From contig CANIAL010000008.1 of NCBI GenBank assembly GCA_947465395.1, forward strand, positions 1 to 64,000: a DNA stretch of 64,000 bases, given 5' to 3'. Source of the stretch: Alphaproteobacteria bacterium (GTDB lineage Bacteria; Pseudomonadota; Alphaproteobacteria; Micropepsales; Micropepsaceae). Shown here piece by piece: positions 31,607 to 42,665 of the stretch (its first letter is position 1; every line of letters starts with the position of its first letter). The translations under genes and the position numbers were made by a program. Below the pieces are notes generated by a model. The model saw only the letters and a program-made list of their open reading frames with translations. It was not told where the DNA came from and did not search any database.

Positions 31607-32212
31607 TTGGATTTGCCCCGCATCTTGAGTGAGATGGAGATTGCGGGCTTTCGCGAGAAGCTCTGCGCCGTCGCCACCCGCATCGTGGTCGAGCACGGCC
31701 ATGAGGGTTTCAACATGCGCCTGCTGGCATCGCGCATGGGTATCAGCGCCATGACCCCCTATCGCTATTTCAAGGACAAGGACGAAATCCTGTCCGCCAT
31801 CCGCGCCCGCGCCTTTGACCATTTCGCCGACCAGCTGGAAGCAGCATTGGCAAAACCGGGCAACGCGGCGGAACGCGGCGCGGCATTGGCCAAGGCTTAT
31901 GTGCGTTTCGCGCTGGAAGAACAGGTTTGCTACCGGCTGATGTTCGACCTGGCCCAGGCGCCGGGCGCGGCCCAGGTGCCCGAACTGGCCGCCGCCGAGA
32001 AACGCGCCCGCGCCGCCATTACCGATCCAGTGCGCGGGTTGATCGCCGATGGCGCCTACAAGGGCGATGCCGACATGATCGGGCATGTTTTCTGGGCGGC
32101 GCTGCACGGCGCGGTAGTGCTGCATCTGGCGGGCAAGCTGGACGGGGCGGTGAATTTCGAGGCGCTGCTGGCGGAAGTCACCGCCATGCTGCGCCAGATG
32201 TACAAGCCCTAG
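31607..32212 (+). CDS. TetR family transcriptional regulator
   Basis: 201 residues. TTG at 31607 is chosen because GGGAGGAAG lies just before it; an ATG at 31634 is the alternative. N-terminal helix-turn-helix: LLASRMGISAMTPYRYFKDKDEIL. The C-terminal ligand domain resembles the WHG-type TetR_C group (EEQVCYRLMFDLAQAP, FWAALHGAVVLHLAGKL). It overlaps by four bases the end of the convergent TonB-dependent receptor and may control that cluster. Confidence 0.88.
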   Translation: MDLPRILSEMEIAGFREKLCAVATRIVVEHGHEGFNMRLLASRMGISAMTPYRYFKDKDEILSAIRARAFDHFADQLEAALAKPGNAAERGAALAKAYVRFALEEQVCYRLMFDLAQAPGAAQVPELAAAEKRARAAITDPVRGLIADGAYKGDADMIGHVFWAALHGAVVLHLAGKLDGAVNFEALLAEVTAMLRQMYKP

Positions 32213-34578
32213 AAGCTGCGCTTCAAGGTGATGCGCAAAATGCGGCCCATGCCCGGCAGCGCCGACAGGTTGGCATATGTATCCGCGCCCGGTGTGAAGC
32301 TTTTGGCATCCGCCAGATTGTTCACATTCAGGCTGACATCCCACAGGCCTAGCCGCACATAGCCGGACGCGTTGAGCGTGATGGATTGCGGGAAAACCAG
32401 CGGCGTGGTCACGGTCTGGATGGTGCGCGAGACATAGGTGCCGCTGACGCTGGCGCCCCAGCCCGCATCATCGGCGGTGTAGGTGATGGCGGGGCTGACC
32501 ACCCAGTCCGGCAACAGCGTGTCCTGGTATTCGCCGGGGCGGATGCTGGAAAAATCAAAAGTGACGTAAGAGCCGCCAAAGCCTGATTGCGGCGGCAGGC
32601 CAGCTACCCGCGCCGGAAGATAGGCAAAGCTGTGATCAGGGCCGCGCACCATGGAACGCTGGCGGCTTCCGGCAAAGGTAAAGCTGACATTGTCGCTGGC
32701 GACATAGCGGATTTCCGCTTCCAGCCCCTGCGCCTTGCGTCCGATCACGGTGGTGACACCGGCGCCTTGCAGCAGCTGCGTGCGCGATTGCGCGTACCAG
32801 GCCATGCTCCCCACCAGATGCTGGTCCAGCAGGTCGAACTTCACGCCCACTTCATTCAGGAACGATGCCGACAGCCAGTCGCGCCCCGCCAGCAGGGATG
32901 TCGCCACCTGGCCCGCCTGCCCGATTTCCACGGCACTGGACTTGGCGTTGGTGATGTAAGGCACGATGCCGAAGGGCGTCTTCCAGGAAAGACTGACGGA
33001 ATAGGTGAAAACACCCTTGCCGCCCTTGCCGTCCGGCGGCTCGAACGCCATCACGCCCAGATCAACCGAGCGCACATTGTAATTGTCGTAGCGCCCGCCA
33101 ACGGTGAGATCCAGGCCGTTGTCCCATGATGTGTCATTGACCAGGAACAGCCCGCCATCCGTCACCGTGCTGCGGACATCATTTTCGAAGCCCAGTCCCA
33201 CCGCGCCCGGCGGATCGGGGGTGAAGGGCGAATCCAGGATGTCATTGGCGGCGGCGCCCGCGCTGATATCGCGCCGGTCCAGCGCGATGACGCCGCTGTT
33301 GAAGCTTTCGCGCCCCACGGCATGGGCATAGCGGTAGGAACCACCGATGATGGACTGGCTGGAAAACAGGCCCCATGTGCGCGAGAAATCGTATCGCGCC
33401 CGCGCTTCAAAAATGTCGCTGCGATATGATCCCGGAAAGCCGTACGAAACAAAGCGGTCGTTAGACAAGGTATCGGTGAAAAGCTGCAGGCGGACGGCAT
33501 CGCCGCCGTCCAGCATGCGCGCAAGATCGACATAGCCGGTATGGGTGGTGGTGCGCGAAAAATCCACGCCTTTGGCGATATAGACGGTGCGCCGGTCCAG
33601 ATGCGTGGTGCCGACGCCGGTGTCCAGGCTGTGCGTGGCGTCAGTGCAGGCGCCGCAGAACGGCACCACCTGATACAGCGGCTGAAAGCCGGGATCGAAG
33701 GCGTAAGGATTGCCGCCAAGCTCGTTGAGGGTGAGGCGGCCATTGCCGTCTGCATCCTTCAGCGACGTATCGCGCCCCGTTATATAGGCGCCGTTGTCTA
33801 TCAGGGTTTGGGTTAGGCGGTTCCAGCCCGGCGTCTGCACCTGGCCGTCGGCGTGATAGAACATGTAATCGGCGGACAGCGACCAGTCGCCTGCCGAAAA
33901 ATCGCCCGAAAATTGCAGAAGCTGGTGGCTGGGATGCAGGCCGCGATAAAAGCTGAAGGAATCGTCCAGCTCGCCATAGGCATGGACGCCGCCAGCTGCA
34001 AAACCCAAAGCCACCGGCGCGCTGACCTGCGCGGTCATGTTGCGCCTGGAATAGCTGCCATAGGTTACACTGGCGTCGCCGCTGATTTCGTCCTGCCGCG
34101 CGTTGGCGATGCTCTTGGGAATGAAATTGAGCTGCCCGCCCACCTTGCCCGCACCATAGATGGCCGATGGCGGCCCGCGCACGATTTCCACCCGCGCCGC
34201 ATCGCCCAAAGGCGTCTCGTAAGTGCCGCGATTTTCCGCCCGCTTAAAGCCGCGGAAATAATTTTCCGCCAATGTGCCGCGCAGATTGACCGCGCCTTCC
34301 ACGCCGTAAAAACTGGCAGTATAGGCGGACGGTGTCACGCGGGTCAGGTCGTCCACCCCATCCACGCCGTACCGGTCCATGGTGGCGGCACTGACGGTGG
34401 TGACGGCGCGGGGCGTTTCGGTCAGCGGCTTGGCCAGGCCAAAGGCCGCCGTGCCGGGCGCGGTTTCGATCAGATGGGCGCGGTCGCCGGTGACGGTGAT
34501 GCTTTCCATTTGTTGCGCGGCAGCCGGTGCAGAAAGCGACACCAGCATGACAATCACCTGACGCACATACACACGCAT
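32209..34578 (-). CDS. TonB-dependent receptor
   Basis: 789 residues from the ATG at 34578, signal peptide ending AAAQ. A TonB-box-like ESITVTG lies near the mature N-terminus. The plug domain has TETPRAVTTVSAATMDRYGV, VNLRGTLAENYFRGF, VEIVRGPPSAIYGAGKVGGQ, then a beta-barrel ending in F (LRITLKRSF). The plug resembles FhuA/FecA-type siderophore receptors, but the neighbours (DAAO-like flavoprotein, MFS carrier) argue for an organic substrate. It follows the MFS gene by 67 bases. Confidence 0.92.
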   Translation of the reverse strand: MRVYVRQVIVMLVSLSAPAAAQQMESITVTGDRAHLIETAPGTAAFGLAKPLTETPRAVTTVSAATMDRYGVDGVDDLTRVTPSAYTASFYGVEGAVNLRGTLAENYFRGFKRAENRGTYETPLGDAARVEIVRGPPSAIYGAGKVGGQLNFIPKSIANARQDEISGDASVTYGSYSRRNMTAQVSAPVALGFAAGGVHAYGELDDSFSFYRGLHPSHQLLQFSGDFSAGDWSLSADYMFYHADGQVQTPGWNRLTQTLIDNGAYITGRDTSLKDADGNGRLTLNELGGNPYAFDPGFQPLYQVVPFCGACTDATHSLDTGVGTTHLDRRTVYIAKGVDFSRTTTHTGYVDLARMLDGGDAVRLQLFTDTLSNDRFVSYGFPGSYRSDIFEARARYDFSRTWGLFSSQSIIGGSYRYAHAVGRESFNSGVIALDRRDISAGAAANDILDSPFTPDPPGAVGLGFENDVRSTVTDGGLFLVNDTSWDNGLDLTVGGRYDNYNVRSVDLGVMAFEPPDGKGGKGVFTYSVSLSWKTPFGIVPYITNAKSSAVEIGQAGQVATSLLAGRDWLSASFLNEVGVKFDLLDQHLVGSMAWYAQSRTQLLQGAGVTTVIGRKAQGLEAEIRYVASDNVSFTFAGSRQRSMVRGPDHSFAYLPARVAGLPPQSGFGGSYVTFDFSSIRPGEYQDTLLPDWVVSPAITYTADDAGWGASVSGTYVSRTIQTVTTPLVFPQSITLNASGYVRLGLWDVSLNVNNLADAKSFTPGADTYANLSALPGMGRILRITLKRSF

Positions 34579-34645
34579 GGTTCTGATCGTTTGAAAAGCG
34601 CGCATGTTCTAGCAGGTGGAATGCCGCCCACAAGCGCCGCCGCCT

Positions 34646-35869
34646 TTATGCCGCAGGATTTCCGGGCGCTGCACCCATGCGCGGAGCGCGCATCAGGATC
34701 ACCGCCAGCATCACCGCCGCCACCACCACCGCCAGGATGATGAAGGCGGGCACGAACTGGCCGCTGCGGTCAAAGATGAAGCCGGCAAAGGCCGGTCCCA
34801 CCGCGCCGATGGTGGAAATCAGATTGACGGTGGAAAACAGTTCCAGATTGGGACCGCGACCGAAATATTCCAGCAGCAGGATGGTAGAGGCGAAAAAAGT
34901 CAGGCCATAGCCGATGCCGATGCCGCCGGCGAAGACCAGCATCATGGGCGCACCCTGCGCCGCGCCAAGCGCCAGAAGCCCCACGATCAGAAGGACCAAG
35001 GCCGCCAGCAACATGGTCTTGGCGGACACGAAACGCCCTGCCACGCCGCCCAGGAATCGCGCAAAGGAGTTGAGCATGGCTTCCAGGCTCATCAGCGCGC
35101 CTGCCACCACGGGGGCGACGCCATGGGTCATCAGATGCGCCACCGCCACGGCATTGACGGTGATGCCAACGAACAGGAAAGCGGAATAGGCGGCGGCCAG
35201 CACGGCGAATTGCGGCGTGCGCAGCGCGGATTTCACGTCCCAGCTTTGCGACGTGATGGCGGGATCGGGATCGCGGCTGCCTTCAAGATTGGTAGTGACA
35301 TCCACCAGCATGGCCGAGATCGCGCCCAACACCAGCACGGCGATGGCGGCGAAAATCCAGTAGCCGCGCCAGCCGCCAAATCCACCACTGATCGCCGACA
35401 CCCAGAAATACAGAGGAGGACCTGCCACGCCGCCCAGGCCCCCGATGGTGAAATAAAGCCCAAAGGCAAAAGACGGGCGCGCGAAAACGCGGCTGAGCAA
35501 ATATGTCCCCGGCACCGTGGCCAGGGTCATGAAACTGAGGCCCGCCAGCGAACAGCCCAGGAAATAAAGCCAAAGACCTTGCGCGCGGGCGAGCGCCACG
35601 AACCCCGCCGCCATCAAGATGGCGCCCAGCATCAGGGCGGCGCGCACGCCCAGCCGCCGTATCAGCACCGCGGGAATAAGACTGGCCAGGCCCGTGAAAA
35701 CGCCCAGCAGCGAGAAACCGGTACCCGCCGCGCCCCAGCTCCAGTGCAGCTCGGCCACCATGGCGGGCAGGACCACGCCCAGGGATGAGAATGTCAGCGC
35801 GGTGATGAGAAAAAACATCAGGCTGACGCACGCCAGCGTTACCCAGGCACGAACGGAAGCCTCGATCAT
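34646..35869 (-). CDS. MFS transporter
   Basis: 407 residues with 12 predicted TM helices. The N-half carries AVLIRRLGVRAALMLGA (the loop 2-3 motif A region) and the C-half GRFVSAKTMLLAAL. It resembles the oxalate/formate-antiporter-like and monocarboxylate groups. Its start overlaps by four bases the stop of the flavoprotein gene, so the two are translationally coupled and the substrate may be that flavoprotein's substrate or product. Confidence 0.9.
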   Translation of the reverse strand: MIEASVRAWVTLACVSLMFFLITALTFSSLGVVLPAMVAELHWSWGAAGTGFSLLGVFTGLASLIPAVLIRRLGVRAALMLGAILMAAGFVALARAQGLWLYFLGCSLAGLSFMTLATVPGTYLLSRVFARPSFAFGLYFTIGGLGGVAGPPLYFWVSAISGGFGGWRGYWIFAAIAVLVLGAISAMLVDVTTNLEGSRDPDPAITSQSWDVKSALRTPQFAVLAAAYSAFLFVGITVNAVAVAHLMTHGVAPVVAGALMSLEAMLNSFARFLGGVAGRFVSAKTMLLAALVLLIVGLLALGAAQGAPMMLVFAGGIGIGYGLTFFASTILLLEYFGRGPNLELFSTVNLISTIGAVGPAFAGFIFDRSGQFVPAFIILAVVVAAVMLAVILMRAPRMGAAPGNPAA

Positions 35870-37062
35870 GCGCGGGGGAAACGCGAATAAAGCTCTTCCA
35901 GCACGCCCACCGCCTTGTCGGCTTCGGCACGGTCGGCCACTTCGCGGCCATTGTCATAGCCCTTCATGTCGCCGCCATCCACCGCCTGCACCACGATGCC
36001 GTCTGTGCGCGACCAGGTGGAGACATCGCGATAGGACAGGGCGTAGCGCACTTCCGGCTGCGGGATAAGCCAGGCGATCTGGCCACGCACCGGCACGATG
36101 GAATTGTCGTTCCACCATTCGCGCGCCGCATAGCCGGGGCAGTTGATCACGGTTTTTTCCGCAAGCTGCGTCAGCTCGCGCGGGTCGCGGAATTCCTGGC
36201 GCACGAACTTGCCGCCGGCCAGGAAGAAATCCGTCATCAAGGTATGGCTGTAATTGGCGATGTTGAACTGCATCGTCTCCGAGCGACGCACATATTTCAC
36301 TGGAAACGGCGTGGCGGCAGGCGGAATATCCTGTGCGCGCGGCGTCAGGTCACGGATGCGGTCATTGTAATGGGCGAAATCCAGCGAGCCAGGCGGCTCC
36401 GACGCTTCGCGGAAAGGCGTGTCCGACAGGGAATAGCGGTCCGTCCATTGCACGGGATTGCCGGGCAGGCCCAGATACTGGCGATAGATCTTGAAGGATG
36501 TTCGCGCCATCTGTTCCCAGGTCTCGGCGAAAGCCGGCCCCGCCACATCGGCCAGCGCAATGCGCGAATCCGGCGTCCAGCCGCCAGTGGCCCGCGCCGA
36601 GCGCGTCTGGGGAAGCTGGTCGCGGGCATAGATGGTGACGGCCGCGCCCTGGCGCTGCGCCGTGATGGCCGAGGTAAGCCCGATCGCGCCGCAGCCTATC
36701 ACGGCGATGGATTTGGGCCGGTTGATCATGGCCTGGCCCACCGCCATCGCCGCCGATCCCCAGGACAGCGACCAGCCGCTGCCGCCATGGCCGTAATTGT
36801 GCACCACGCGGGTGTCGCCCATCATTTCGGTTTCGATGCGCGGCCCCTTGGCGCGGAAGGGGCGCAGGCACACCGTGATGTCGAACAGACGATCGGCATG
36901 GGCGCGAATGGGCATCAGACGCGGCGGCACATCCTGGGCCGAAAGGCCCAAAGCGGGCGCGGTGCGCGCGCCCGGTGCCGCGCATGCCCCAAGACCTGCC
37001 AAACCGCCAAAGGCCAGCGAAGTCGTCAACAGGCGGCGGCGATCCAGATTTTTCGACGTCAT
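35866..37062 (-). CDS. Exported FAD-dependent oxidoreductase, circularly permuted D-amino-acid-oxidase type
   Basis: 398 residues from the ATG at 37062 (an ATG at 37074 is alternative). The N-terminus has DRRRLLTTS and a hydrophobic run ending LGAC, so it is probably Tat-exported and perhaps lipidated. Residues 67-102 (RPFRAKGPRIE, then HNYGHGGSGWSLSWG) match the part of D-amino-acid oxidase that is normally at the C-terminus. Only afterwards comes the FAD Rossmann motif AVIGCGAIGLTSA (121-133), normally at the N-terminus. The protein ends after the VPVRGQIAWL region and GGDMKGYDN. The order is thus permuted. Substrate unknown. Confidence 0.85.
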   Translation of the reverse strand: MTSKNLDRRRLLTTSLAFGGLAGLGACAAPGARTAPALGLSAQDVPPRLMPIRAHADRLFDITVCLRPFRAKGPRIETEMMGDTRVVHNYGHGGSGWSLSWGSAAMAVGQAMINRPKSIAVIGCGAIGLTSAITAQRQGAAVTIYARDQLPQTRSARATGGWTPDSRIALADVAGPAFAETWEQMARTSFKIYRQYLGLPGNPVQWTDRYSLSDTPFREASEPPGSLDFAHYNDRIRDLTPRAQDIPPAATPFPVKYVRRSETMQFNIANYSHTLMTDFFLAGGKFVRQEFRDPRELTQLAEKTVINCPGYAAREWWNDNSIVPVRGQIAWLIPQPEVRYALSYRDVSTWSRTDGIVVQAVDGGDMKGYDNGREVADRAEADKAVGVLEELYSRFPRA

Positions 37063-37138: not shown

Positions 37139-37462
37139 ATGACAAAGGAAGAAATCACCGCCTGGGCGCTGGCCAATGGCTGGCAGATGATGGACGGCTT
37201 TCCCAGCCTGACCAAGCCCACCGCGCCGCGTCCGGCCATTGTGCGGCTGGTGCTGAAAGCCACTGTCGCCAGCGTGGAGATCAAGAAGCCTGCGGGCAAA
37301 TGGGAAAAAGTCTCGGGCGCGGCCTACAAGGACATCGCGGCAGATGCGGAAAGCGGCATGCCGGGCGGATTGGGGCTTGGCACCATTTCGGGCATCACGC
37401 TTTTGATGCGCGACAACAAGGACCGCATGGTCTTTGCGAAGTTTGCGGCGCCGAAATCTTAG
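37139..37462 (+). CDS. Conserved-looking hypothetical protein
   Basis: 107 residues, starting MTKEEITAWALANGWQMMDG. Predicted short N-terminal helix, then alternating strands (IVRLVLKATVASVEIKK) and a glycine-rich loop. No signal peptide, TM segment or recognised family. Codon use (strong GC3) is like that of its neighbours, which supports a real gene. Divergent from the permuted oxidase. Confidence 0.65.
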   Translation: MTKEEITAWALANGWQMMDGFPSLTKPTAPRPAIVRLVLKATVASVEIKKPAGKWEKVSGAAYKDIAADAESGMPGGLGLGTISGITLLMRDNKDRMVFAKFAAPKS

Positions 37463-37598: not shown

Positions 37599-38018
37599 CT
37601 AGCGCTGTGCCTTCACGTCTTCCGGCTTCACCTTGTCCTTATAACGATTTCCGAAATTGCTGCGGATGTAGTTGACCACATCGGCCACCTGCTGGTCGCT
37701 GAGGAAATTCTTCAGCGCCGGCATCGCCTTTTGCCCATTGACGATCACCGAGATGGGATAGGCGGCGGTTTCCAGATTGGCGTCCTTGGCCAGCGCCGGA
37801 TACATGCCCGCGCCAACCGCGCCCTTGGCATCGGTCATGTGGCAGCCCTGGCAGACACCCTTGAAGACGGCTTCGCCGCCCTTGAACTGGGTCCAGGCGC
37901 CGCCGCGGCCCATGGCGCCGGTGCCGATATCCTGGGAATCATCGGCGCGCGTGGGCAGGCTGACCAGCGCAGACGCAAGCGCCAGGATTGCCGCGGTGGC
38001 GGCAAGACGGATTTTCAT
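37599..38018 (-). CDS. Exported class I cytochrome c
   Basis: 139 residues with a signal peptide (cleavage after TRA). One haem site, CQGCH, a distal methionine probably in KAMPALKNF, and a C-terminal helix QQVADVVNYIRSNF. It starts 19 bases after the stop of the flavin amine oxidase, with GGGAGAG before its ATG, so the two form an operon. The likely role is as electron acceptor for that flavoenzyme, by analogy with CycN and NicA2 of nicotine-degrading Pseudomonas. Confidence 0.93.
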   Translation of the reverse strand: MKIRLAATAAILALASALVSLPTRADDSQDIGTGAMGRGGAWTQFKGGEAVFKGVCQGCHMTDAKGAVGAGMYPALAKDANLETAAYPISVIVNGQKAMPALKNFLSDQQVADVVNYIRSNFGNRYKDKVKPEDVKAQR

Positions 38019-38037: not shown

Positions 38038-39636
38038 CTATGCGCTCATCGCGCGCTGATGCACCCGCTTGATGGCATCGAGCGCGGACGTGGCCGAGCC
38101 TTCCTGCCAGGCGCTGAGGCGCGAGGCATGTTCGCCCGCCAGCACGATGCGCCCGTCCAGAGCGCACATATTGTTGTAATGCTGGTCGCGCGCAGCCTCG
38201 GTCCATTGGCCGGAACAGCCAAGCGTCCAGGGCACGCGGTGCCAGGCCACGGCCACGCCGCATTCAAACTCTTTCTTGTAATTGCCCGGATGCAGCATCT
38301 CGCCATATTCCAGCGCGTCCTTGATGCGCTCGGAAGCAGGCTTGGCCGCCGCCACGAAGGCGCCCGAACCCATCACATAGGCGCCCAGAATGACGCCTTT
38401 TCCTTTCGAGAAATAATCCCACATGGGATAGCCAAGCATGGCGTTGGGCTGGCTGGTATAGGAAAGCCCGCCATAAATGCCGTCATCCTGTTCCCAGAAG
38501 CGGCGCTTGAACTGCAGGCCGATCTTGAGGCCCGCGCCATAGGAAAGCTGGTTGATGGCCGTTTTCATCTTGCCGCCCACATTCATGGGAATTTGCGACA
38601 GGATGGAAGCGGGGATGGTGCAGACGCACCAGTCGGCGGAAACCTTTTGCGGTGCGCCGCCCTTTTGCGTATCGACATAGGTGGCGGTGACGCCCTTTTC
38701 GTCCTGATGAATGTCAACGACCTTGGCATTGTACTTGATCAGGTTGCCCAGCTCGATGCCGAACGCCTTGCCCACCTGGCCCATGCCGCCCTTGGGCTGG
38801 AAGATGGAGGTCTGGTAGTCCCAGTCCTGGCCCCAGCCAATGGCGCGCCACATGTAGGAATTGAGCACATTGCTCATGCTGTCGGGCTCGGAATAGATGG
38901 GCAGGGAATCCAGCCCGCCGCCGGAATCCTTTATATAACCGCGGCGCGCGCCGGATTCGCGGCCCATCTTGTATTCGTAATTCTTGTCCAGCGCGCCCCA
39001 GGCCTTGAGCGCCGTCATCAGGATTTCCTGGTCCTGCTTGGTCACGGCCTGGTCCAGCGCATTCTGCTTGGTGCTCTTGGCCAGCAATTCGGCGACATGG
39101 CCATGGAAGTCGGCCTGAACCTCGCGGTAACGCTTGGGCTTGCCGCCATTGGCAGCGGCATTGTGGACATAGGCGTTGTAATTGACCTGGGTGAAGGGCT
39201 CCAGGGTCACGCCCAGCCGGCTGGTGTAATGCATCATCGCCTTGTGATGGTGCGGCAGGCGCCAAGGCCCGGGATTGATGTACTGGCCGGGGTCAAACTG
39301 CACATGCTGGGTTTCGCCGCCCAGCTCGGTATAGGTGTCGCCGCCATAGAGCGACCAGTTCCGCCCGCCCGCGCGATTGTTGTATTCCAGCACCGTCACC
39401 TTGTAGCCGGCGTCGCGCATTTCCAGCGCCGCCACCATGCCGGCAATGCCGGCGCCCAGAATCAGAACCGAGGATCCCGGCGGCGCTTTGCCCAGCTGCG
39501 GCGGACCGGTGAAGTGCGATGCATCCGCAAAGCCCATCTCGGTCATGGCATTGTACATGGCGGTGGAGCCGGCCACCGTGCCGATCATGCTGAGGAGCGA
39601 ACGCCTGCTCAGCCGCGAGCTGTTTTTCTCTGCCAT
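38038..39636 (-). CDS. Tat-exported flavin-dependent amine/L-amino-acid oxidoreductase
   Basis: 532 residues from the ATG at 39636 (GGGGAGAAG upstream; the frame extends to 39798 but that part is non-coding). Twin-arginine signal SRRSLLSM (10-17). FAD site VLILGAGIAGMVAALE with the E in VTVLEYNNRAGGR. The motif GPWRLPHHH (R126) corresponds to the arginine that holds the substrate carboxylate in L-amino-acid oxidases. The C-terminal FAD motif is LAGEHASRLSAWQEGSATSA. It probably oxidises an amino acid or amine in the periplasm. Electrons may go to the adjacent cytochrome c rather than O2 (inference). Confidence 0.9.
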   Translation of the reverse strand: MAEKNSSRLSRRSLLSMIGTVAGSTAMYNAMTEMGFADASHFTGPPQLGKAPPGSSVLILGAGIAGMVAALEMRDAGYKVTVLEYNNRAGGRNWSLYGGDTYTELGGETQHVQFDPGQYINPGPWRLPHHHKAMMHYTSRLGVTLEPFTQVNYNAYVHNAAANGGKPKRYREVQADFHGHVAELLAKSTKQNALDQAVTKQDQEILMTALKAWGALDKNYEYKMGRESGARRGYIKDSGGGLDSLPIYSEPDSMSNVLNSYMWRAIGWGQDWDYQTSIFQPKGGMGQVGKAFGIELGNLIKYNAKVVDIHQDEKGVTATYVDTQKGGAPQKVSADWCVCTIPASILSQIPMNVGGKMKTAINQLSYGAGLKIGLQFKRRFWEQDDGIYGGLSYTSQPNAMLGYPMWDYFSKGKGVILGAYVMGSGAFVAAAKPASERIKDALEYGEMLHPGNYKKEFECGVAVAWHRVPWTLGCSGQWTEAARDQHYNNMCALDGRIVLAGEHASRLSAWQEGSATSALDAIKRVHQRAMSA

Positions 39637-39863: not shown

Positions 39864-42665
39864 TTAGAACTTCAAAGTCAGGCGGGCATAGTAGAAGCCG
39901 CCATTCGGGTTGTAGTTGCCCGCGATGGGGCCACCGGCGGTGCTGCCATTGCTGGGTGTCAGCGACTTGCCGTTGCCGTCCGTGTCCGGTGTCAGATAGC
40001 CCTGGCGTGTGGGCTTGACGCTGAACAGATTGTTGGCGCCCGCGGCGAACTGCACATTTTCGGTGATGCTGTAACGACCTTCGATGTCGAACAGGCCCAC
40101 GCCAGGACGGTTCTGCGCGTAATAGGGCGTGCCGCCATTGGGAGTGGTGAGCTGATGCTGCGGGCCATAATAAGTTTCGCGCAACGTCACGCCAAACTCA
40201 TCCAGCGACCAGTTGGCGGTCAGGCCAATCTTTTCCGACGGGCCGCTGTGCACGAAGTTGTACTGCGTGAAAAGCGGGAACAGGGTGGCACCCGGCGCCG
40301 AGGCCGTGATGACGGCCGGCGGCGGCTGGATCTTGCTGATCGAGGTCTGGTTGTAGTTGCCAGCCAGGGTCCAATCCACCGAACCATAATTGCCCATGTC
40401 CATCGGGTAGTTGACCGCCAGGTCCACGCCTTGCGTCAGGGTAGAGATGCCGTTCAGGAACACCGTGATGCCGTTCTGGGTGGCAGTCGGGTCCAGGGCA
40501 ATACCCTGAAGGGCGATCGCCGTATTGACCAGCGGCACATTGATGGCGCCGCCCAGGCTGTTGACCGTTGCGGACTTCACAATGCGGTTGCCCAAGGTCA
40601 GGCTGTAGGCATCGATGGTCACGCTAAGGTCGGCAAAGGGATGGGCCACGATGCCGGCGCTGTACTGGGTGGAAATTTCCGGACCCAGGTTAGGAATGCC
40701 CAGCAGCTTGGACGCCGGAGAGTTGGCGGGCAGCTGCACCGTTGCCGTGGTGGGCGAGACCTGCGTGGCGGAATAATATTCTTCAGCCAGGGTGGGGGCG
40801 CGGAAGCCGGTCGAGATGGTGCCGCGGATCGCCCATTGCGGGTTGAAGTCATAACGCGCCGTGATCTTGCCGATCGTGGCATCGCCGAAGTCGCTGTAAT
40901 GCTCGTAACGGCCGGCGATATCCAGCTGCAGAGCTTCGATGGGGGCAACCGCGAAGTCCACATAGGCCGCATAGTTCTTGCGGCTGTGCTTGCTGGCGTC
41001 CGAAAGGCTGTAGCCCGGGAATGACTGGCCGCCTTCCTTGTAGCGCGAGGCCGCATCACCAGACTTGATCTGGTAGAAGTCCTCGCGGGCTTCCAGGCCA
41101 ACCGCGACGGTCAGCGGGCCGGCCATGCCGATATTGTACTGGTGGGTGGCGTCGATATTGGCCACCAGCTGCGAGGCCACGAACGAGCCGTCATAGAAGT
41201 TGGACGGGGTGGTGTGCGTGTCAATGAACAGCGCACGGTTGCCCGAATCCAGGGTCAGGACATCTTCCTGGTCCTTGCCGTAGCTGGCGCCCGCATCAAT
41301 ATCCCAGCCGGCCAGCATGAACTTCACGCCGGCGTTATACTGGTAATCGTCTTGCCGGATTGCTTCGATGGGCGTGAAGCCCTTGGGCGCAAACACCAGT
41401 TCGCCAGGCGTATAGAGCGTGCCGGCTTGTCCACCGGAGATGATCTGACCAGTGGTTGTGTTAAGGCCATTGTTGCCAAGGGGCGCCACGCCAAGGCCGC
41501 TGCCATTGGTCTGACCAATGGCGCAAGCCGGCGTAATGCCGTTGGCCGCTACCGCGGTGTTGTAGCCCTGCTTGTTGGTTGCGGAACAAGGCTGGCTGGA
41601 ACCCGGCGCCGCGATGATCTGGTTCGGCAGACGGTAATTCTGCTGCGCCTTGGCATTGCGATGCGCCCAGCTGGCGAAGGCATACAGATGCACATCGTCG
41701 CTGACGTCATAGCCGGCGTTCAGGAAGGACGTGAACAGCTGCTGTTCCGAATTGCCGCCGATGCGGTTGGCATAGGGATAGAAGGGCGCCGTGCGGCGCT
41801 GGGCCAGCGGCACGCAAACGCCGTTGGAACAAGGCACGATGCCCGTGTTGGGATCGACCGCGAAGGTATTGTTGGTGGCCGTGGCGCCCAGGCCGATGCG
41901 GCCTTCCTGGGCTTCCGCGAAGCCGGTGGAGGGACCGCTAATATAGCGGGCGTCCTTGCCCGGCGATGTCAGGGCATAACCCACGAACTTCTTGTCAACG
42001 GTGACGTTGATGAAGCCCTTGTCGAACAGCGGCATGCCGATATTGAGCGAGATGTCATAGGTCTCGCCTGTCTTGTTGTACTGGCGGCCGACGCTGGTGG
42101 TCAGATTGCCGCCCGACGAGTTCTTCTTGAGGATGAAGTTGATAACGCCAGCAATGGCGTCGGTGCCGTACTGGGCGGCCGAACCGTCCAGCAGGACTTC
42201 TGCATGTTCGATGGCAGCCGTGGGGATCAGCGAAATGTCGGGCGCCGCGCTGCCGCCGAAGGCATTGGCATTCGCGTTGAGCAGACCAACACCATGACGG
42301 CGCTTGCCGTTCACCAGCACCAGCGTGTCATTGCCCGACAGGCCGCGCAGGGTGGCGGACAGCGCCAAGTTGGAAAGGTCGCCGCCAGTTGCCTGGGCGG
42401 TGAAGGACGGAACGGTCTGTCCCAGGGCCTGGCGAAGGTCGGCCTGGCCGGCGCCTTGCGTCAGGGCAGATGTGCCCAGCACGGTGATGGGGGCGGCGCT
42501 GTCGGCGGCGGTCATGCCGGCCACGCGCGTACCCGTGACGATCACGCTTTCCAGATCGGCCTGGTTGTTGCTCTGCGCCATGGCGGCGCTGGCAAACATG
42601 CCGAAGGACACGACGGACGCGCCCAGGAACAAGGAATTCTTGAAGTTGGATTTTGATACAAACAC
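39864..42665 (-). CDS. TonB-dependent receptor (large, Oar/CirA-like plug)
   Basis: 933 residues. GTG start at 42665, supported by AAGGGGG seven bases upstream. Signal peptide ending AMAQ. TonB box region ESVIVTGTRV. Plug with ATLRGLSGNDTLVLVNGKRR, IPTAAIEHAEVLLDGSAAQY and GTDAIAGVINFILKK. The barrel ends YYARLTLKF. The plug type is common in receptors for plant-derived or peptide substrates in Caulobacterales and sphingomonads. It lies between the amine oxidase operon and the PatB-like gene, separated from the former by a terminator. Confidence 0.94.
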   Translation of the reverse strand: MFVSKSNFKNSLFLGASVVSFGMFASAAMAQSNNQADLESVIVTGTRVAGMTAADSAAPITVLGTSALTQGAGQADLRQALGQTVPSFTAQATGGDLSNLALSATLRGLSGNDTLVLVNGKRRHGVGLLNANANAFGGSAAPDISLIPTAAIEHAEVLLDGSAAQYGTDAIAGVINFILKKNSSGGNLTTSVGRQYNKTGETYDISLNIGMPLFDKGFINVTVDKKFVGYALTSPGKDARYISGPSTGFAEAQEGRIGLGATATNNTFAVDPNTGIVPCSNGVCVPLAQRRTAPFYPYANRIGGNSEQQLFTSFLNAGYDVSDDVHLYAFASWAHRNAKAQQNYRLPNQIIAAPGSSQPCSATNKQGYNTAVAANGITPACAIGQTNGSGLGVAPLGNNGLNTTTGQIISGGQAGTLYTPGELVFAPKGFTPIEAIRQDDYQYNAGVKFMLAGWDIDAGASYGKDQEDVLTLDSGNRALFIDTHTTPSNFYDGSFVASQLVANIDATHQYNIGMAGPLTVAVGLEAREDFYQIKSGDAASRYKEGGQSFPGYSLSDASKHSRKNYAAYVDFAVAPIEALQLDIAGRYEHYSDFGDATIGKITARYDFNPQWAIRGTISTGFRAPTLAEEYYSATQVSPTTATVQLPANSPASKLLGIPNLGPEISTQYSAGIVAHPFADLSVTIDAYSLTLGNRIVKSATVNSLGGAINVPLVNTAIALQGIALDPTATQNGITVFLNGISTLTQGVDLAVNYPMDMGNYGSVDWTLAGNYNQTSISKIQPPPAVITASAPGATLFPLFTQYNFVHSGPSEKIGLTANWSLDEFGVTLRETYYGPQHQLTTPNGGTPYYAQNRPGVGLFDIEGRYSITENVQFAAGANNLFSVKPTRQGYLTPDTDGNGKSLTPSNGSTAGGPIAGNYNPNGGFYYARLTLKF

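Follow-up and report, generated by a model that had tools for sequence, protein, structure and literature searches.

The closest described relatives of the protein considered here are D-amino-acid oxidase (DAAO, EC 1.4.3.3) and D-aspartate oxidase (DASPO, EC 1.4.3.1), represented in the PDB by 7ct4, 6rkf and 1kif. In these enzymes the FAD-binding Rossmann motif is N-terminal and a signature block containing Arg283 and HNYGHGG is C-terminal. Eukaryotic DAAO uses O2 and makes peroxide in a compartment of its own. The Rossmann-first order is that of the wider DAO family, and canonical bacterial DAAOs (Tsukamurella, Mycobacterium, Streptomyces, and on Vibrio and Burkholderia plasmids) likewise carry the motifs, block included, in normal order with the block C-terminal. 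DadA-type and other DAO-family dehydrogenases (PF01266) contain no DAAO block, and their Rossmann motif lies close to the N-terminus; DadA is linked to the respiratory chain.

We analyzed a stretch of 64,000 nucleotides (the window) from an alphaproteobacterial genome of the Micropepsaceae (contig CANIAL010000008.1, positions 1 to 64,000), in which a flavoprotein gene carries the DAAO motifs in another order. The features of the locus are as follows.

32209..34605, minus strand: TonB-dependent receptor, downstream context (Pfam)
34646..35869, minus strand: MFS transporter (Pfam MFS_1, 4.6e-21); its start overlaps the flavoprotein stop (ATGA)
35866..37062, minus strand: DAAO-like flavoprotein CDS with circularly permuted motif order, 398 aa (Pfam DAO, 82.4 bits)
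35887..35931, minus strand: C-terminal helix, residues 378-392 (model); the new C-terminus corresponds to about DAAO residue 269
36079..36090, minus strand: VRGQ, residues 325-328, aligned with DAAO RGQ (Gln201 in pig DAAO)
36613..36711, minus strand: start of the FAD Rossmann beta-alpha-beta unit, residues 118-150 (VIGCGAIG at 121-128; strand and helix from the model)
36727..36921, minus strand: displaced segment (RPxR, GPRxE, HNYGHGG, WG), residues 48-112 (phmmer and family profile)
36985..37062, minus strand: Tat-type lipoprotein-like signal, residues 1-26 (DRRRLL ... LGA, then C27; sequence pattern)
37599..38018, minus strand: small cytochrome c whose N-terminus resembles a signal (Pfam Cytochrome_CBB3, 1.2e-12)
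38038..39636, minus strand: flavin amine oxidase, likewise preceded by a Tat-like signal (Pfam Amino_oxidase, 2.4e-45)
39864..42665, minus strand: TonB-dependent receptor, upstream context (Pfam)

The flavoprotein frame is open from the ATG at 37062, upstream of which lies the G-rich stretch GGGGGCCGCCATG, to the stop at 35866. Pfam DAO matches residues 119-396 (E 5.9e-23), with a score that exceeds the gathering cut-off of 27.9 bits. The signature block occupies residues 67-102 and reads RPFR...GPRIE...VVHNYGHGGSG...WG, with RPFR at 67-70, GPRIE at 73-77, HNYGHGGSG at 88-96 and WG at 101-102; R70 and H88-G94 are present and conserved. The Rossmann motif follows the block, an order opposite to that of DAAO and DASPO. 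All motif positions given in the initial annotation, which named no strand, match the translation of this minus-strand ORF. The same annotation placed the end of the chain before the displaced segment, which is correct, and directly after the VRGQ/GGD region, which is not: GGD lies in the region of residues 367-369 and is followed by the further predicted helix 378-392. A second intact block at the C-terminus was looked for and is absent.

Searches of PDB sequences with phmmer ranked DAAO and DASPO first, as two pieces in reversed order. On 7ct4, query residues 118-367 aligned with 25-276 and residues 64-108 with 325-369, as expected from the permutation proposed initially. With the single sequence the block was significant by itself (i-E 2.9e-8) and the body was weak (i-E 0.21); with the family profile both were significant (i-E 2.2e-11 and 5.7e-12), the block match extending over query residues 48-98 and 321-371 of 7ct4. 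The displaced segment is thus the counterpart of the C-terminal end of DAAO. Rotation of the query left the total score for 7ct4 nearly the same (53.8 versus 52.7 bits), because HMMER already sums both pieces; it fused them into one collinear stretch for 7ct4, but not for DASPO or human DAAO.

An AlphaFold2 model built with 18 relatives as input (pLDDT 86.3, pTM 0.83) has a strand at 118-122 and a helix at 126-137 around the Rossmann motif. VIA-align superimposed model residues 115-393 on DASPO 2-263 (Z 19.5) and residues 117-394 on DAAO 1-269 (Z 18.5), so that the likeness of fold concerns the body portion, and gave lower values for other DAO-family enzymes (Z 14-15). Since the body aligns to about DAAO 1-269, the C-terminus sits at the point at which the displaced segment would begin in DAAO. 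Three strands (59-70, 75-81 and 84-90) and a helix (100-111) make up the block in the full model, with high confidence; folded alone, the block was poorly formed (pTM 0.49) and had no match in the PDB. This contrast suggests, short of proof, that the block packs on, and needs, the body; it is uninformative as to placement. In a permutant of this kind the block would be predicted to occupy the place in space of the DAAO C-terminal segment. Overall, the flavoprotein is almost certainly a circular permutant of the DAAO kind. It differs from DAAO and DASPO in that the last ~65 residues are moved to the front and a Tat/lipoprotein-like signal is added.

The permuted order proved to be widespread when homologues were collected. 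Classification by motif order gave 130 permuted and 8 canonical ORFs; L040, L167 and the frameshifted L168 were assigned to neither class, and some of the 130 are one gene fetched twice via two collections. Those hosts that are named belong to the Alpha-, Beta- and Gammaproteobacteria and the Acidobacteriota, with one Verrucomicrobiota MAG. The distance between HNYGH and the Rossmann motif is nearly fixed, being 34 aa in 119 of the 130, and a second copy of the block was found in none of the 130 by the motif-order check. Full-length homologues at 52-74% identity occur in the genus of the window; 32 of 100 genomes of relatives had a match, with about two dozen long matches in that genus. A GTDB genome scan yielded at least 574 related stretches, of which the best 80 were kept. 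It could be argued that a window taken from a draft genome contains an assembly or frameshift artefact; nothing further points that way, and the recurrence of this order in about 130 ORFs, which come mostly from independent genomes, refutes it for practical purposes.

Samples of some 300-400 genomes of the window's phylum were also searched. The family profile matched 20 of 398 genomes and all matches read as permuted; three canonical queries found no canonical protein with the block in these samples, where every block-bearing protein found was permuted. Matches to the canonical queries at L175-L185 are partial and lack the block. Canonical DAAOs are present on plasmids of Vibrio and Burkholderia, and a single one, the ORF L111:513-1601 on a long branch, comes from a genome of the window's genus. 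Plasmid copies of the permuted proteins are annotated plainly as 'FAD-dependent oxidoreductase'. No description of a permuted DAAO was found in the literature searched, which is weak evidence as most subscription journals lay outside it. A textbook flavoenzyme occurs naturally in circularly permuted form in many bacteria, providing a natural test of the effect of permutation on a flavin site. A frameshift within the Rossmann motif (GVMG / LTAAT) divides the gene of a group III relative (group III is described below) on a Mesorhizobium plasmid (L168:2735-3798), where two genes are annotated.

In a careful tree of rotated sequences a single branch parts permuted from canonical proteins (support 100/99), and a quick tree of the body only gave the same split (support 99). 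Both trees are unrooted; the canonical order was taken as ancestral on the basis of the wider DAO family. The permutation appears to have arisen once. If the root is on the canonical side, the deepest permuted group is group III (L132, L133, L157 and L158). Canonical bacterial DAAOs have 26-35 aa beyond the motif at the C-terminus in 7 of 8 cases, and 4-8 aa at the N-terminus in the three proteins for which a close Met start was found; the 34-aa spacing is about the sum expected from joining these termini end to end. The proposal that the chain was cut before the last FAD-binding segment and rejoined at the front agrees with the reversed order, the fixed spacing and the single branch. The break would lie in the loop that follows the helix with its end near DAAO residue 269 and precedes the strand running up to the catalytic Arg283, and the old C-terminus would have been joined to the old N-terminus via a linker of about six residues. 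The block would consequently have become N-terminal, behind a Tat-type signal that is here lipoprotein-like. No tandem or duplicated-block intermediate was found among the classified ORFs. This would also be the case if the C-terminal segment of another DAAO gene had been placed before a C-terminally truncated one, and sequence cannot separate such a paralogue copy from a tandem duplication. We consider this origin unlikely, as the linker length fits plain joining of canonical termini and only one branch is involved.

The N-terminus has the twin arginine, hydrophobic stretch and lipobox Cys of a Tat lipoprotein signal (DRRRLL...LGAC27), in line with the Tat-type signal noted initially, and the flavoprotein is probably exported, as judged from this pattern. 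By the same patterns an RR-like signal is present in 123 of the 130 permuted ORFs, with a lipobox in 84 of those 123; at least one RR match, that of L157, is spurious, lying upstream of the real start. The further idea that the permutation is tied to export is unsupported, because a signal is missing from L132, L157 and L158, which are three of the four proteins in the deepest group.

In the alignment, the equivalent of the carboxylate-binding Arg283 and the HNYGH histidines are invariant. The position of Tyr228 retains Tyr in groups II and III; in the flavoprotein it is not Tyr, and in most of its subgroup (group I) it is S, N or another residue, a loss less firm than the block assignment as the alignment is gappy here. 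In the subgroup the two glycines of the LGG motif known from DAAO are changed as well. Given both changes, DAAO chemistry may be altered.

The flavoprotein and the MFS transporter are probably co-translated, since the stop of one and the start of the other overlap in ATGA (GCATGATCG). The cytochrome c gene, whose product is a candidate electron acceptor, lies 0.5 kb upstream of the flavoprotein gene and follows the amine oxidase gene after 19 nt. The same amine oxidase and cytochrome c pair is found beside the permuted gene at L071; as a family rule this operon was discarded, because among 80 loci examined by tblastn only 2 had the amine oxidase nearby. Between the cytochrome c and flavoprotein genes there is a 107-aa ORF (37139-37462, plus strand) with no Pfam or NCBIfam match. 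In the wider family, a cytochrome c start lies -4 to +20 nt from the flavoprotein stop in 23 of 130 permuted ORFs, a count that includes L049 and L019, where only some possible starts fall at or near this range. One clade, sister to the window protein and its closest relative, consists mostly of these genes; the coupling requires 2 changes on the body-only tree. Among same-strand downstream neighbours Cytochrome_CBB3 is the top family (9 of 95 proteins), and TonB receptors account for 8 of 88 upstream. In Kozakia such a pair is annotated as FAD-dependent oxidoreductase plus cytochrome c, in a cluster that also encodes serine hydrolases and a TonB receptor, together with another FAD oxidoreductase, which we take to be DadA-like from the appearance of its sequence.

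We favour, with somewhat better than even confidence, a permuted DAAO-fold protein that oxidizes amino acids or amines after export and passes electrons to a c-type cytochrome and not chiefly to O2. It would probably bind FAD and be exported in the folded state, the oxidation taking place on the outer face of the inner membrane; in its link to the respiratory chain it would probably resemble DadA. Cytochrome c gene coupling in the sister clade and the retained Arg283 equivalent argue for this. Against it, the window gene lies just outside the coupled clade, the cytochrome c near it is part of the amine-oxidase module and lies 0.5 kb away, beyond an ORF on the opposite strand, and Tyr228 and the LGG glycines are changed in its subgroup. 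For an exported dehydrogenase linked to cytochrome c as such, the chances are about even or slightly better. The same fold might instead act as an oxidase producing hydrogen peroxide in the periplasm: its nearest solved relatives are oxidases, and in 107 of 130 cases the permuted gene is not directly followed by one for a cytochrome c. The coupled genes of the sister clade and the cytochrome c near the window gene make this rather doubtful. That catalysis has been lost, leaving an FAD- or ligand-binding lipoprotein, would suit the replaced Tyr228 and is improbable with Arg283, GxGxxG, HNYGH and RGQ (nearly) invariant down to about 50% identity. More generally, and tentatively, exported permuted DAAO-fold dehydrogenases may be widespread and deliver electrons taken from D-amino acids or related amines directly to c-type cytochromes dedicated to this role. 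Whether amino-acid oxidation in the periplasm supplies cytochrome c directly is a further question for which this family is a natural test case.

The proteins listed as released by the acetic acid bacterium Asaia bogorensis include a 'D-amino acid oxidase' (PMC12502724). Proteins resembling RidA, a few of which seem to carry a signal peptide, are encoded near the permuted genes at L047, L081 (10885-11547), L094 and L096. On three rhizobial plasmids group III genes (L157, L158 and L168) precede a gene for a thiamine-diphosphate enzyme, and on two of the three an FAD-binding oxidoreductase lies ahead of the group III gene.
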